A stretch of 64,000 nt of DNA from the NCBI RefSeq assembly GCF_030283145.1, contig NZ_JASNWE010000004.1, positions 682,001 to 746,000 on the forward strand, written 5' to 3'. Of this stretch, positions 31,248-38,113 are shown piece by piece; the first letter of the stretch is position 1, and every line of letters starts with the position of its first letter. The notes beneath the pieces are model-generated. The model saw only the letters and a list, made by a program, of their open reading frames with translations, had not been told where the DNA came from and searched no databases. The DNA is from Actinomadura xylanilytica (GTDB lineage: Bacteria; Actinomycetota; Actinomycetes; Streptosporangiales; Streptosporangiaceae). Made by a program: the position numbers and the translations under genes.

Positions 31248-31520
31248 GGGATCGGTCCTGTGGAACAACCGGTCTACCTCCGCCTTCCCCCGTCCGGCCC
31301 GCCCTCGGCGGACGGGCCGGTCACAGCCTAGGCCGCGCCGTCCGTCCCCCGGGCGGGCGGGCCCGCGACGCCGTCGGCCATGCCTCCTCCTCGCCCAGAG
31401 AAATGGGATCTCGATACGAGCGATATAGGTAATTAATTTCGCCCTGATATGATAAAGAAAATGGCGAGTAGCCTCCAGTTCTCCCGGGAGACCGATCCCG
31501 GGGGAACGGAGGGTCGAGCG

Positions 31521-32393
31521 ATGATCGATGGACGGCCCAGCCGGACCGCGCTGTTCACGGCGGCGGCACGGGCGGCGCACCCAGAGGTCGACGGCGAGCC
31601 ACTGCTGTTCCGCGACACCCTCGCCGCGCCGCTGCTCGGGGACCTGGCGGCCGAGATGGTCGGCTACCACCGCGCGCAGGGCGACCACCCCATCCTGTCC
31701 GGCACTCGGACGCTGACGGTGACACGGTCGCACTACACCGAGCGCCGGCTCGGCGAGCTGGCCGGGCGGGGCCTCGGCCAGTACGTGATCCTCGGCGCCG
31801 GGCTGGACACCTACGCCTACCGGGCGGGCGACGGCGCGGGCGACGGCGCGCGGGGCGGCGGCCCGCGGGTCTTCGAGGCCGACCATCCCGCGACGCAGGA
31901 ATGGAAGCGCGGCCTGCTGGCGGCGGCCGGGATCCCCGTCCCGGACGGGCTCACGTTCGTCCCGGTCGACTTCGAGTCGGACGAGCCCGTGCGGCGCCTG
32001 GCGGACGAGGGCTTCGACCCCGGGCGGCCCGCGCTGGTGAGCTGGCTCGGCGTCAGCGTCTACCTCACGCCGGACGCCCTGCACGCGGCGCTCGCCGAGT
32101 TCGGCCGGCTCGCCCCCGGCAGCGAGCTGATCATGGAGTACCTCCTGCCGCCGGCCCTGCGCGACGAGGCCGGCGCCGCCTACGCGGACTTCTCCGGCCG
32201 GGCGGTGTCCGATCTCGACGAGCCGCACCGGACCTTCCTCGCCCCGGCGGAGGTCGCCGACGCCATGGCGGCCCACGGCCTGAAGGTGGTCGAGGACGTC
32301 GGGACGCGGGAGGCCGTCCCCGCCCCGTCCTGGCGGAGATCTGACGCGCTGTGCCCGTTCGACTTCGCTCGATTGGTCAGGGCGACTATCTAG
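31521..32393 (+). CDS. SAM-dependent methyltransferase, PPM1/LCMT-like (TIGR00027 type)
   Basis: This 290-residue protein resembles the actinobacterial leucine-carboxyl-methyltransferase-like family. It has SRTALFTAAARAAHPEVD, TRSHYTERRLGELAG, the SAM-binding QYVILGAGLDTYAYR, the FEADHPATQEWKR motif with its Asp, and ALVSWLGVSVYLTPDA. Such enzymes O-methylate small molecules, often in secondary metabolism; the substrate is unknown. GGAGG lies eight bases before the ATG at 31521. A short Gly/Asp repeat (GDGAGDGARGGG) interrupts residues 100-115. It diverges from the kinase gene over an AT-rich gap of about 270 bp. Confidence 0.85.
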   Translation: MIDGRPSRTALFTAAARAAHPEVDGEPLLFRDTLAAPLLGDLAAEMVGYHRAQGDHPILSGTRTLTVTRSHYTERRLGELAGRGLGQYVILGAGLDTYAYRAGDGAGDGARGGGPRVFEADHPATQEWKRGLLAAAGIPVPDGLTFVPVDFESDEPVRRLADEGFDPGRPALVSWLGVSVYLTPDALHAALAEFGRLAPGSELIMEYLLPPALRDEAGAAYADFSGRAVSDLDEPHRTFLAPAEVADAMAAHGLKVVEDVGTREAVPAPSWRRSDALCPFDFARLVRATI

Positions 32394-35785: not shown

Positions 35786-35882
35786 CGACCGCCCGACCCC
35801 GACCGTCGGTCACACCACGCGAACGGTCGGCGTCCTAGGCATAGAACTCGGGCGGGTCGGCGGCGGCTCTCGGCTCGACCAT
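35786..35882 (-). pseudogene. Broken 5' copy of the small gene at 37682-37963
   Basis: The first 35 or so codons match the intact 93-residue gene located two kilobases away: PRAAADPPEFYA here against PRASADPPEFYAWDAD there. The Trp codon TGG has become TAG (35834-35836 on the plus strand reads cta), giving a stop after 15 residues. Similarity then continues through GVTDGRGRAV and stops near 35786. The upstream flank to about 35940 is also about 85% alike to the flank of the intact gene, so the duplication included its promoter region. Confidence 0.8.
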
Positions 35883-36436
35883 CGTGACCGTCCTGTGCGA
35901 CTTGGAGTCTCTGTTCGGTCACGTCCAGTGAAGTCATGACGGATGCCACAACGACAGGGGAGGATCGGAGGAGGAACAGGGGAGGGTATCTCCTCCCCCC
36001 TGCGAGGAGGTGCATCGCAGTGTTCACCGCCGACCGCAAGGCCATAGCCGCGACGTCACCCGCCCGGCTCCCCGCGGCGCCCGCGGGCACGACCGACTAG
36101 TCCGCCACAACGCCGACGAGCACGACCTCCAGTCCGCCGTCGGGGAGTCCGGAGAGATCGCCGCGTGGTGCCTCAATAACAGTGACCGGCTGGCCGGGTC
36201 CCGTGCCATCACACGAGGCGATGCTGATCTCCCGCCTCGCGCGCTGGCGCAGGGCGAGGAGCGCGAGCGCACGGCCCACAACGACCTGGTGCATCTACTG
36301 CTGGACCACCAGGGCGACCCGTAGACCCCTTCGGGCGGGCGGCGTTCCCGAGCGAGTCACAACACCCCGCGCCCTGTCCGCCCGGAGGTTCCAAGCGTGG
36401 CATCCGGCCGCGCCGGCATCGTGGAGGAGTACGGCA
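35883..36436. other. Spacer with duplicated regulatory DNA and an uncertain short reading frame
   Basis: Positions 35883-35940 repeat the upstream region of the intact small gene (37964-38028). Further on, a 26-codon frame at 36020-36100 (GTG start, MFTADRKAIAATS) is preceded by a strong GAGGAGG site, but it ends quickly. The same plus strand offers a 104-codon frame (36010-36324) and the minus strand a 65-codon frame (36097-36294). Codon bias does not choose between them. The region may be the 5' leader of the peptide-methyltransferase operon or a decayed gene. Confidence 0.4.
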
Positions 36437-36571
36437 ATGGGCAAGCATGGCGACAAGGACAATCCGAAGGACGACCCCAAGGGCGGCGACGGCAGCAGTC
36501 CCCAGGGCGGCAAGCGTGGCAGCGGTGGGGACGACGGCGGCAACAAGGGGGACGGGAAGAGTCCCAAGTGA
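36437..36571 (+). CDS. Candidate RiPP precursor peptide (imiditide-like)
   Basis: A 44-residue peptide with an excellent ribosome site (GGAGGAG, eight bases before the ATG). It is made mainly of Gly (13), Lys (8) and Asp (8), plus Asn, Pro, Ser, Gln, one Arg and one His; it has no Cys, Thr, aromatic or aliphatic side chain beyond the start Met. Asp-Gly pairs occur at residues 18-19, 33-34 and 39-40, the dipeptide most prone to aspartimide formation. The stop overlaps the GTG of a protein-isoaspartate-methyltransferase-like gene (GTGA). This layout fits RiPPs in which the methyltransferase converts Asp to aspartimide; the assignment is inference. Confidence 0.7.
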   Translation: MGKHGDKDNPKDDPKGGDGSSPQGGKRGSGGDDGGNKGDGKSPK

Positions 36572-37635
36572 TCGAATCTGTTCCTCGGCATCTGTTCGTC
36601 CCTGATCGCGCGTTGGCGATGCCGGACAGCGACGAACCGAACCATCCGATCGATCGGGAGGCGCGGCCGGAGGAGTGGCGGGCAGCGGTGGACTCCAACA
36701 CCGCGATCATCACCCAGTTCGATGACGGGGCTGAGGGCGGCGCCGGCCTGTTCAGCTCGTCGTGCTCTGCTCCGGCCACCGTGCGGGACTTCCTGTCCGC
36801 GCTGGACCTGCGAGATCGTGACCGGGTCCTGGAAATCGGGACCGGGACGGGCTGGACGGCCGCTCTGATCTCGCATCGAGTCGGGTCCGAGAACGTGACC
36901 AGCATCGAGATCGATCCGGAGGTACTGGCCCAGGCAGAGAAGAACCTGAAACAGGCCGGCTACCTTCCCCGCCTGGTCCAAGGGGACGGGACGGCCGGCC
37001 AACCTGACGGAGCCCCCTACGACCGTGTTCATGTGGCCTGCGGAGTCTCCGAAGTTCCCCATGCATGGGTGGAGCAGGCCCGGCCGGGCGGGGTGATCGT
37101 GCTTCCGTGGAATCCCCTGTACGGCAACGGTCACCTGGCACGCCTGACCGTGGCCGGAAACGGCACTGCGCTGGGCCGGTTCCCTGAGTTCGCCAACTAC
37201 ATGATGGCCAGAGGGCAGAGGATCACCGGACGGTCCGTCTCCTCCTACACGGAAGGTACCGAGCCGGCCCGCAGCACGACCGAGCTCGATCCCCGCACCG
37301 TCGCGTGGGACTCCTACGGAGCGGACATCGCCATCGGGACTCTTGTCCCCGGTGTGGAGAAGCGGATGTGCGCCGCAGATGACGACTCTGGGGAGTGGAC
37401 GTTGTGGCTCCTGGAGCCCGGCTCCGGTTCCTGGGCATCAGTGGACTACGAACCGGGCCGCGCAGCGTTCACGGTGGAGCAATGGGGAGACCGCCACCTG
37501 TGGCACGAGGCAGCGGCGGCTTACCTTCAATGGGTCGACTGGGGAAGCCCGTCCCAGGACCGCTTCGGCATGACCGTGGCCTCAGAAGGCCAAACGATCT
37601 GGCTCGACTCCCCGGACAACCCCATCAACCCCTGA
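36568..37635 (+). CDS. Protein L-isoaspartate methyltransferase-like RiPP modification enzyme
   Basis: The 355-residue protein starts VIESVPRHLFVPD, the typical PIMT N terminus, followed by FSSSCSAPATVRDFL in place of the SQP segment of repair PIMT, SAM motif I VLEIGTGTGWTA (residues 87-98) and an acidic motif II (TSIEIDPEVL). About 150 extra C-terminal residues (from near 205) are absent from housekeeping PIMT (about 215 residues) and are usual in the PIMT homologues of RiPP clusters. It would O-methylate Asp of the coupled peptide, which then cyclises to aspartimide. It could instead be a stand-alone repair enzyme, but coupling to the charged peptide argues otherwise. Confidence 0.8.
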   Translation: MIESVPRHLFVPDRALAMPDSDEPNHPIDREARPEEWRAAVDSNTAIITQFDDGAEGGAGLFSSSCSAPATVRDFLSALDLRDRDRVLEIGTGTGWTAALISHRVGSENVTSIEIDPEVLAQAEKNLKQAGYLPRLVQGDGTAGQPDGAPYDRVHVACGVSEVPHAWVEQARPGGVIVLPWNPLYGNGHLARLTVAGNGTALGRFPEFANYMMARGQRITGRSVSSYTEGTEPARSTTELDPRTVAWDSYGADIAIGTLVPGVEKRMCAADDDSGEWTLWLLEPGSGSWASVDYEPGRAAFTVEQWGDRHLWHEAAAAYLQWVDWGSPSQDRFGMTVASEGQTIWLDSPDNPINP

Positions 37636-37650
37636 AAGGGTGGGACTCTG

Positions 37651-37677
37651 GCCCCTGTCGCTTCGTGCGGCAGGGGC
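37651..37677 (+). terminator. Terminator after the peptide-methyltransferase pair
   Basis: An 11-bp stem (GCCCCTGTCGC with GCGGCAGGGGC, one G-T pair) around a TTCGT loop lies 15 bp after the methyltransferase stop and is followed by TTCGTC. It marks the end of the two-gene unit. Confidence 0.75.
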
Positions 37678-37681
37678 TTCG

Positions 37682-37963
37682 TCACCTGGCCCCGACCAGA
37701 CCGGACTCACCGTCTGTCCAGACGACGGAGCCGGACGCCCCGTCCCGCCGGGCGACTCCGACGACGCCGAGCGTGACGTAGTCGCCGCTCACCGCGCCGA
37801 CCTGAACGCGGCGGACGAGCCCAGACGTGTCCGGGGGGGCGTCGGCGAGGACCTCGTTCACGTGGTTGACCGCCCGGCCCCGGTCATCGGTCACACCGCC
37901 CGCGCGGTCGGCGTCCCAGGCATAGAACTCGGGCGGGTCGGCGGAGGCTCTCGGCTTGAACAT
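37682..37963 (-). CDS. Small conserved hypothetical protein next to XRE regulator
   Basis: This 93-residue protein begins FKPRASADPPEFYAWDAD, continues GVTDDRGRAVNHVNEVLADAPP and ends in a beta-rich region (GLVRRVQVGAVSGDYVTLGVVG). Similar small proteins lie next to XRE-TPR regulators in actinomycetes, as far as I recall, but no function is known. It is transcribed divergently from the XRE regulator gene, and its 3' end meets the terminator of the methyltransferase gene. The 5' end and promoter are duplicated, in broken form, near 35.8 kb. Confidence 0.65.
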   Translation of the reverse strand: MFKPRASADPPEFYAWDADRAGGVTDDRGRAVNHVNEVLADAPPDTSGLVRRVQVGAVSGDYVTLGVVGVARRDGASGSVVWTDGESGLVGAR

Positions 37964-38113
37964 CGTGACCGTCCCGTGTGACGTGGAGTTCTGATCTGGT
38001 GACGTCCAGTGAACTTGTGGCGCGCGTCACGCCGCCAGGGGAGCATTGCGGGTGACCGGGACGGAGACTTTCGCGTCTCCGCCCCACGGGCGATCAGCGA
38101 ATGGTGCACGCCG

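Follow-up and report, generated by a model that had tools for sequence, protein, structure and literature searches.

The window, a 64,000-nucleotide stretch of an Actinomadura xylanilytica contig, contains two overlapping genes on the forward strand. The first encodes a 44-aa peptide (MGKHGDKDNPKDDPKGGDGSSPQGGKRGSGGDDGGNKGDGKSPK) and the second a 355-aa methyltransferase (VIESVPRHLFVP...), whose GTG start shares the tetranucleotide GTGA with the stop codon of the peptide gene (36568-36571). The features of the locus are as follows.

36423 to 36436, forward strand: ribosome-binding site GGAGGAG (36423-36429) with its 7-nt spacer, read from the sequence
36437 to 36571, forward strand: gene for the probable imiditide (type I pamtide) precursor, 44 aa, from ATG at 36437 to the end of the stop codon at 36571
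36488 to 36493, forward strand: codons of the predicted target Asp18-Gly19 of the precursor, from the precursor alignment
36568 to 37635, forward strand: gene for a PIMT-type protein L-aspartyl O-methyltransferase (PAMT), 355 aa, GTG start
37159 to 37635, forward strand: C-terminal extension of the PAMT, about 158 aa, with the acidic loop DDDSGE and WVDWGSP (WXXXGXP)
37650 to 37678, forward strand: 12-bp G+C hairpin with no T-run, from folding energy and the right edge of the block shared with a second genome

A preliminary description of this DNA had proposed a tiny gene with an optimal ribosome site, fused by GTGA to a methyltransferase gene and followed by a terminator. The ribosome site, 7 nt before the ATG, and the overlap are as described. 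The terminator was borne out only in part: the region 37625-37690 with the hairpin folds strongly (-36.4 kcal/mol, z -4.1), but the hairpin lacks a T-run, and a simple scan found no intrinsic terminator at 37650-37678. We interpret the hairpin as a probable transcription end, but not as a typical terminator.

Both genes recur in A. oligospora (locus L020), where the enzyme is 88% identical to the focal one. The blastn block common to the window and L020 covers 36423-37678 only, with the ribosome-binding site at its left edge and the hairpin at its right, and the 1.5 kb of window on either side gave no match in the 9-kb L020 locus. The gene pair thus behaves as a self-contained cassette. Between the two species, the peptide codons show eight synonymous and three non-synonymous differences (NG86 dN 0.039, dS 0.368), and the enzyme genes have a dN of 0.063 and a dS of 0.333. 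These comparisons indicate purifying selection on the peptide gene (dN/dS near 0.1) and argue that the gene pair is more than a chance arrangement. One of the three amino acid changes abolishes the Asp33-Gly34 pair of the A. oligospora peptide.

A 179-nt direct repeat lies on either side of the cassette (35787-35965 and 37868-38046, 80-83% identical), with weaker copies elsewhere in the genome. The downstream copy overlaps the start of a 93-aa ORF with no family match (37682-37963, reverse strand). The upstream copy has the same ORF start but runs early into an in-frame stop, and therefore looks like a remnant.

Upstream of the pair are sugar-type ABC transporter genes and, beyond them at a distance of about 4 kb, a TIGR00027 SAM-dependent methyltransferase gene (31449-32393, 135.8 bits, over the cut-off). 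Downstream come a small ORF that matched no family and genes for an NsdA-family regulator and a GNAT acetyltransferase, followed by desulfurase-like and esterase/beta-lactamase-like genes. An NCBIfam scan of 11 neighbouring window proteins, some of which had no match at all, found no class-defining RiPP enzymes, and no match to the ATP-grasp maturase model TIGR04187 was present in the window. This agrees with the earlier claim that the locus has no other modifying enzyme.

The methyltransferase matches Pfam PCMT over residues 64-197 (1.7e-28), leaving about 158 residues on the C-terminal side. Together with the VPRHLFVP segment near its start and EIGTGTGW at residues 89-96, this upholds the proposal of a PIMT-like enzyme with an extension. 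The nearest NCBIfam model was TIGR04188 (ATP-grasp peptide maturase system methyltransferase), although the 280 bits scored do not reach its cut-off of 380. An AlphaFold2 model built from 42 aligned sequences had a mean pLDDT of 93.5, and both Foldseek and VIA-align returned 1dl5, the T. maritima PIMT, as its best PDB match. The Foldseek superposition is loose overall (351 columns, TM 0.53, rmsd 7.9 Å). VIA-align gave a Z of 24.2 and an rmsd of 2.8 Å for 213 residues within model positions 1-351; the alignment reaches the end of the extension, but its rows lie mainly in residues 1-218, so that the fold of the extension alone is barely covered, and PIMTs without an extension score within 1 Z unit of 1dl5. 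Like the focal enzyme, 1dl5 has a C-terminal domain, which Lee et al. (PMC10787088) single out as being of the RiPP type. However, 1dl5 has WXXXG only, according to a recent review (PMC13001092), whereas the focal enzyme carries the full WXXXGXP as WVDWGSP, plus the acidic loop. W322, G326 and P328 of this motif are invariant in the 42 sequences, and the same review describes WXXXGXP for lasso, graspetide and imiditide PIMTs.

The focal enzyme is 50% identical over 352 columns to a methyltransferase from Nonomuraea maritima (L074). The latter has a DEDGD loop that aligns with the focal DDDSGE, and the L074 precursor has two Asp-His pairs, the second near the C terminus. We take L074 to be the NmaA/NmaM locus because an acidic DEDGD loop in NmaM and Asp-His in the NmaA precursor are what the review reports (PMC13001092).

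The 44-aa peptide contains 14 Gly, 8 Asp, 8 Lys and 4 Pro residues (32%, 18%, 18% and 9%) and gave no match when searched against plasmids. As the preliminary description stated, it lacks Cys, Thr, Tyr, Phe and Trp, and the translation contains three Asp-Gly pairs (18-19, 33-34 and 39-40). The same description considered the composition unlike any known, which does not stand: published type I precursors are about 45 residues long, and Gly, Pro, Asp and Lys are abundant in them (PMC10787088, PMC13001092). Type I pamtides were described by Lee et al. in 2023 as two-gene systems with a precursor of about 45 residues and a conserved Asp near Pro/Gly, and the published averages are 17.3% Gly, 16.8% Pro and 10.2% Asp (PMC10787088).

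Our set of homologues comprised 202 distinct loci with upstream sequence, which we typed by rule, using the composition of the last 28 residues and patterns for ATP-grasp and zinc-ribbon proteins. This gave 119 type I-like loci, 8 type II, 7 graspetide and 68 others. The 119 candidates represent 117 distinct ones, from which we removed ten loci that were spurious, truncated or resembled type II (L036, L048, L137, L143, L147, L151, L152, L191, L224 and L229), leaving 107 cleaned type I peptides. In the named collection (79 loci, 78 with enough upstream sequence, spurious candidates being moved to the "other" class), a type I peptide adjoins the methyltransferase gene at 55 of the 78 loci and a graspetide signature is found at 5, but 18 have neither. 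The "other" class includes at least two filter misses, as L166 and L167 contain a peptide-like stretch. At L033, a type I-like peptide (2612-2794) lies about 1.2 kb upstream of its methyltransferase gene rather than adjacent to it.

A conserved third gene, such as a protease or transporter, was sought in a Pfam scan of 122 of the 162 neighbouring ORFs in type I loci, a partly hand-picked sample. No Pfam family occurred in more than 4 of the 122 proteins, and no export or leader-removal gene common to the examined loci was found. There is thus no sign of a common exporter or protease, which matches the published two-gene description.

These data bear on whether the enzyme could be an isoaspartate repair PIMT with an extension, the small upstream ORF being incidental. 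The PCMT catalytic domain and the PIMTs among the best PDB matches fit such a function. However, the enzyme scores 80.9 bits against TIGR00080 (repair PIMT), far under the cut-off of 159.05, the peptide is conserved with a dN/dS near 0.1, and similar peptides recur beside the relatives. Furthermore, the near relatives L035 and L110, sisters in the enzyme tree (100/100), have no peptide detectable by our rules and their enzymes also lack the TQxDDG segment. Loss of the peptide along with TQxDDG is expected if enzyme and peptide work together. We consider a repair function highly improbable.

The focal peptide belongs to a recurrent and recognisable subfamily, which we call PQGG (M-G-[KR]-H ... 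D-G-x-x-P-Q-G-G) and which comprises 14 of the 107 cleaned type I peptides. In the focal enzyme four residues precede VPRHLFVP, whereas the N terminus of many relatives is 20-30 residues longer, and a second group of PQGG loci has an enzyme N terminus nearly as short (27 loci compared). PQGG enzymes do not group in one clade: in a FastTree phylogeny with 193 leaves, the smallest clade to contain them all has 63, and they are split as well in an IQ-TREE subset of 76. The suggestion of a possible new branch is not supported by the composition and, since the enzymes are split, "branch" suits the peptide motif better than the enzyme.

We aligned 14 PQGG-type peptides, including L173, which lacks PQGG but was admitted by its ends, and leaving out L121. 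Nine positions are invariant (M1, D12, G19, G24, G28, G30, N36, D39 and G40), and six more are at least 90% conserved (G2, D18, P22, Q23, G25 and R27). Asp18 is present in 13 of the 14 peptides and absent from L173, Asp39-Gly40 is present in all 14, and Asp33-Gly34 is not conserved among the aligned relatives. Beyond the subfamily, DGxxP occurs in 46 of the 107 cleaned type I peptides, compared with a mean of 11.9 and a maximum of 22 in 300 shuffles.

The alignments make Asp18-Gly19 the likeliest target. The choice is not settled, because Asp39-Gly40 and Asp12 are invariant and Asp18 is missing in L173. Modification of Asp39, which lies in Asn-x-x-Asp-Gly near the C terminus, or of both Asp18 and Asp39, is an alternative that we regard as rather unlikely, even though Asp39-Gly40 is the better conserved pair (14/14 versus 13/14) and the second Asp-His of the N. 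maritima precursor is likewise near the C terminus. Against it, the D-G-x-x-P around Asp18 is common to many type I peptides and to most of the graspetide cores seen.

After removal of Met, the peptide would begin with Gly-Lys-His, an N-terminal sequence of the Cu(II)/Ni(II)-binding ATCUN type. Of the 117 distinct type I candidates, a total that still includes the ten loci removed above, 72 have His at exactly position 4 (2000 shuffles: mean 5.1, maximum 13), and in 71 of these Gly or Ala stands at position 2. A peptide that acts mainly in metal binding or regulation, with methylation secondary, could account for this position. However, GKH is internal or missing in other relatives, and several graspetide cores have GKR instead. 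We therefore rejected metal binding as the main function and keep it as a minor and very unlikely alternative. The main text of neither pamtide paper (PMC10787088, PMC13001092) contains the word "copper", and the word "metal" does not appear in the review; among the literature listed in our searches, we found no related work joining ATCUN with aspartimide or with ribosomally synthesized peptides.

Internal duplication of the precursor, with the N-terminal GKHEG... repeated at the C terminus, was considered as a general feature and rejected (mean z of 0.63 for the 107 peptides versus 0.37 for 400 mismatched pairs). The Spongiactinospora precursors L066 and L082 do have an obvious GKHEGxPKD-like motif at both ends, with a central Asp between.

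Returning to the class of the locus, we assign the focal pair to the imiditides (type I pamtides), as a further member of a class known since 2023, with a probability of roughly 0.85. The kinship to imiditides suggested in the preliminary description is supported by the two-gene layout of short precursor and PAMT, by the C-terminal domain motifs of the enzyme (WXXXGXP and the acidic loop) and by the 50% identity to the N. maritima enzyme. The precursor, at 44 aa, has the expected length and its Gly/Pro/Asp/Lys-rich character, with Pro under the published average, and its candidate Asp lies close to conserved Gly and Pro residues (Asp18 in 13 of 14 peptides, Gly19 and Gly24 in all 14, P22 and Q23 in at least 90%). 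The review (2026, PMC13001092) counts 1,414 imiditides, with Streptomyces and Actinomadura as the genera in which they are most frequently found.

NmaA-NmaM from N. maritima and SpaA-SpaM from Streptomyces sparsogenes are likewise two-gene systems with a linear Gly/Asp/Lys-rich precursor of about 45 aa, and have the PAMT C-terminal domain, acidic loop and WXXXGXP in common with the focal pair. The focal peptide differs from known imiditides in its PQGG motif, in having more Gly and Asp and less Pro than the type I averages, and in having Gly, not His, after the candidate Asp; the focal enzyme lacks the N-terminal stretch that many relatives have. Cysimiditides (type II pamtides) also consist of two genes including a PAMT, several with an N-terminal GKH, but have two CxxCxGxG motifs around the Asp, whereas the focal peptide has no Cys. 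Graspimiditides (group 13 graspetides), in which an ATP-grasp enzyme ester-links Thr to Asp in a core that follows a leader and in which the aspartimide lies in a loop, resemble the focal locus in their related PAMT, in D-G-x-x-P and in a 20-column profile match to PQGG peptides. Unlike them, the focal cluster has no ATP-grasp gene, no match to the maturase being present in the window, and its peptide has no Thr and, at 44 aa in all, no graspetide leader.

The focal genome contains 15 places that match the enzyme at E <= 0.001. Among the 11 loci examined, type I peptides were found at L009, L013 (the focal locus) and L016, and type II zinc-ribbon peptides at L012, L015 and L018. L017 is a graspetide cluster (TIGR04187, 372.5 bits, over the cut-off) with the core AGKHEGGTNETSGDPDGNKPG, and no peptide was found at L010, L011, L014 and L019. 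Two of the type II peptides begin with MGKH and one has an in-frame MAKH start. The L012 enzyme match (C4:747400) lies about 1.4 kb beyond the window. The genome has TIGR04187 matches at C4:139914-140867 and at C3:216353-217261, neither of them within the window; the C3 match (contig C3 of G000) is a second ATP-grasp maturase-like gene, under the cut-off and with one in-frame stop.

PAMTs have been described as transmitted to unrelated RiPP subclasses (PMC10787088), and some of our enzyme phylogenies place certain graspetide enzymes near the focal one. In an IQ-TREE analysis of 76 trimmed enzymes, an 11-member mixed clade (SH-aLRT 96.8, UFBoot 96) comprised the PQGG imiditide enzymes L013, L020, L021, L023, L024 and L025, the peptide-less L035 and L110, and the graspetide-cluster enzymes L022, L026 and L049. 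The order of the graspetide group and its neighbours within this clade had a support of 8.7/18 only. With FastTree, 193 enzymes gave the same 11 plus L029 at a support of 0.357, with a 9-leaf mixed subgroup at 0.896, and 77 untrimmed sequences placed L022, L026 and L049 with other graspetide enzymes (0.634), breaking the mixed clade. An AU test did not reject a tree with all graspetide enzymes together (p 0.091), although the fast search used for the constrained trees left them under-optimised, a compatible constraint also losing 31 log units. The mixed imiditide-graspetide clade suggested by these trees is thus not robust.

The enzymes of L049, L026 and L022 are 49-57% identical to the focal enzyme and lie beside cross-linked (graspetide) precursors that end in ...EGGSxxTSEGSPDGSxPQ..., for which TIGR04186 gave no useful match (10.9 bits for L026). 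DGxxPQ is found in all nine precursors concerned, the six PQGG imiditides and the L022, L026 and L049 graspetides. Among the 17 distinct graspetide cores seen, the other 14 lack DGxxPQ, having G, S, T or E after P or P out of place, and some DS or DN. Only L017, L069 and L078 represent the enzymes of these 14 in the IQ-TREE tree, as a separate graspetide clade, and most remaining graspetide enzymes, compared as fragments, are 32-36% identical to the focal enzyme. L278 is a misfit, with 53% identity to the focal enzyme over residues 4-149 yet DNQNPE in its core. The motif does not simply track the enzyme, since imiditides outside this group have DGxxPQ as well (L029, L105, L112, L116-L118, L120, L121, L140 and L235).

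We compared a profile of 13 PQGG peptides with one of 12 graspetide cores (L259, L262, L271, L278 and L279 left out), the subfamily having been picked for this comparison after the resemblance was noticed. The profiles matched without gaps over 20 columns that begin at the GKH Gly and end one residue past Pro, in a stretch where the focal peptide itself has two extra residues. The score of 19.06 was reached by none of 200 column permutations (maximum 17.6), but the HHalign probability was only 44%. Scored against their own shuffles with the graspetide-core profile, the 14 PQGG peptides gave an AUC of 0.90 and the 93 other type I peptides 0.74. Homology between imiditides and graspetide cores at the level of single sequences was rejected, as the best shuffled score (15.0) exceeded every real one (11.6). 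Masking G-x-H lowered the mean PQGG score from 4.89 to 4.59, and masking DG..P lowered it to 1.58; the match therefore rests mainly on the target motif.

As a lead from these comparisons, PQGG imiditides may derive from, or have given rise to, the graspetide core, or the two may have converged on one recognition motif. The more specific proposal that a PQGG imiditide is a leaderless graspetide core minus its cross-linking residues, modified by the same PAMT branch at the same D-G-x-x-P-Q target, we regard as doubtful. In L088, L089, L094 and L096 (Streptomyces, Kitasatospora) and in L140, the C-terminal half of the precursor (NKHGGGGSxEGGNTxDGxxP) resembles a graspetide core, and these precursors may be intermediates.

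By analogy with the characterised relatives NmaA and SpaA, which serve as the model for its chemistry, the focal methyltransferase would bind the peptide, which is linear and highly charged, and would recognise it partly through the C-terminal domain. It would methylate one Asp side chain, most likely that of Asp18 within D-G-x-x-P-Q, and the methyl ester would cyclise onto the main-chain nitrogen of Gly19, forming an aspartimide. The aspartimide would then hydrolyse slowly, mostly to isoaspartate.

On its own, the focal locus, in which the candidate residue is clear, extends a class of more than a thousand members by one. Its value lies in comparison, and swaps of enzymes and substrates with the L049, L026 and L022 pairs would be informative whatever the tree. 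If the link to graspetides is true, the two kinds of substrate would share ancestry or have converged on a single recognition motif, and this PAMT branch would have moved from dependence on a cyclised substrate to use of a linear one, or in the opposite direction.
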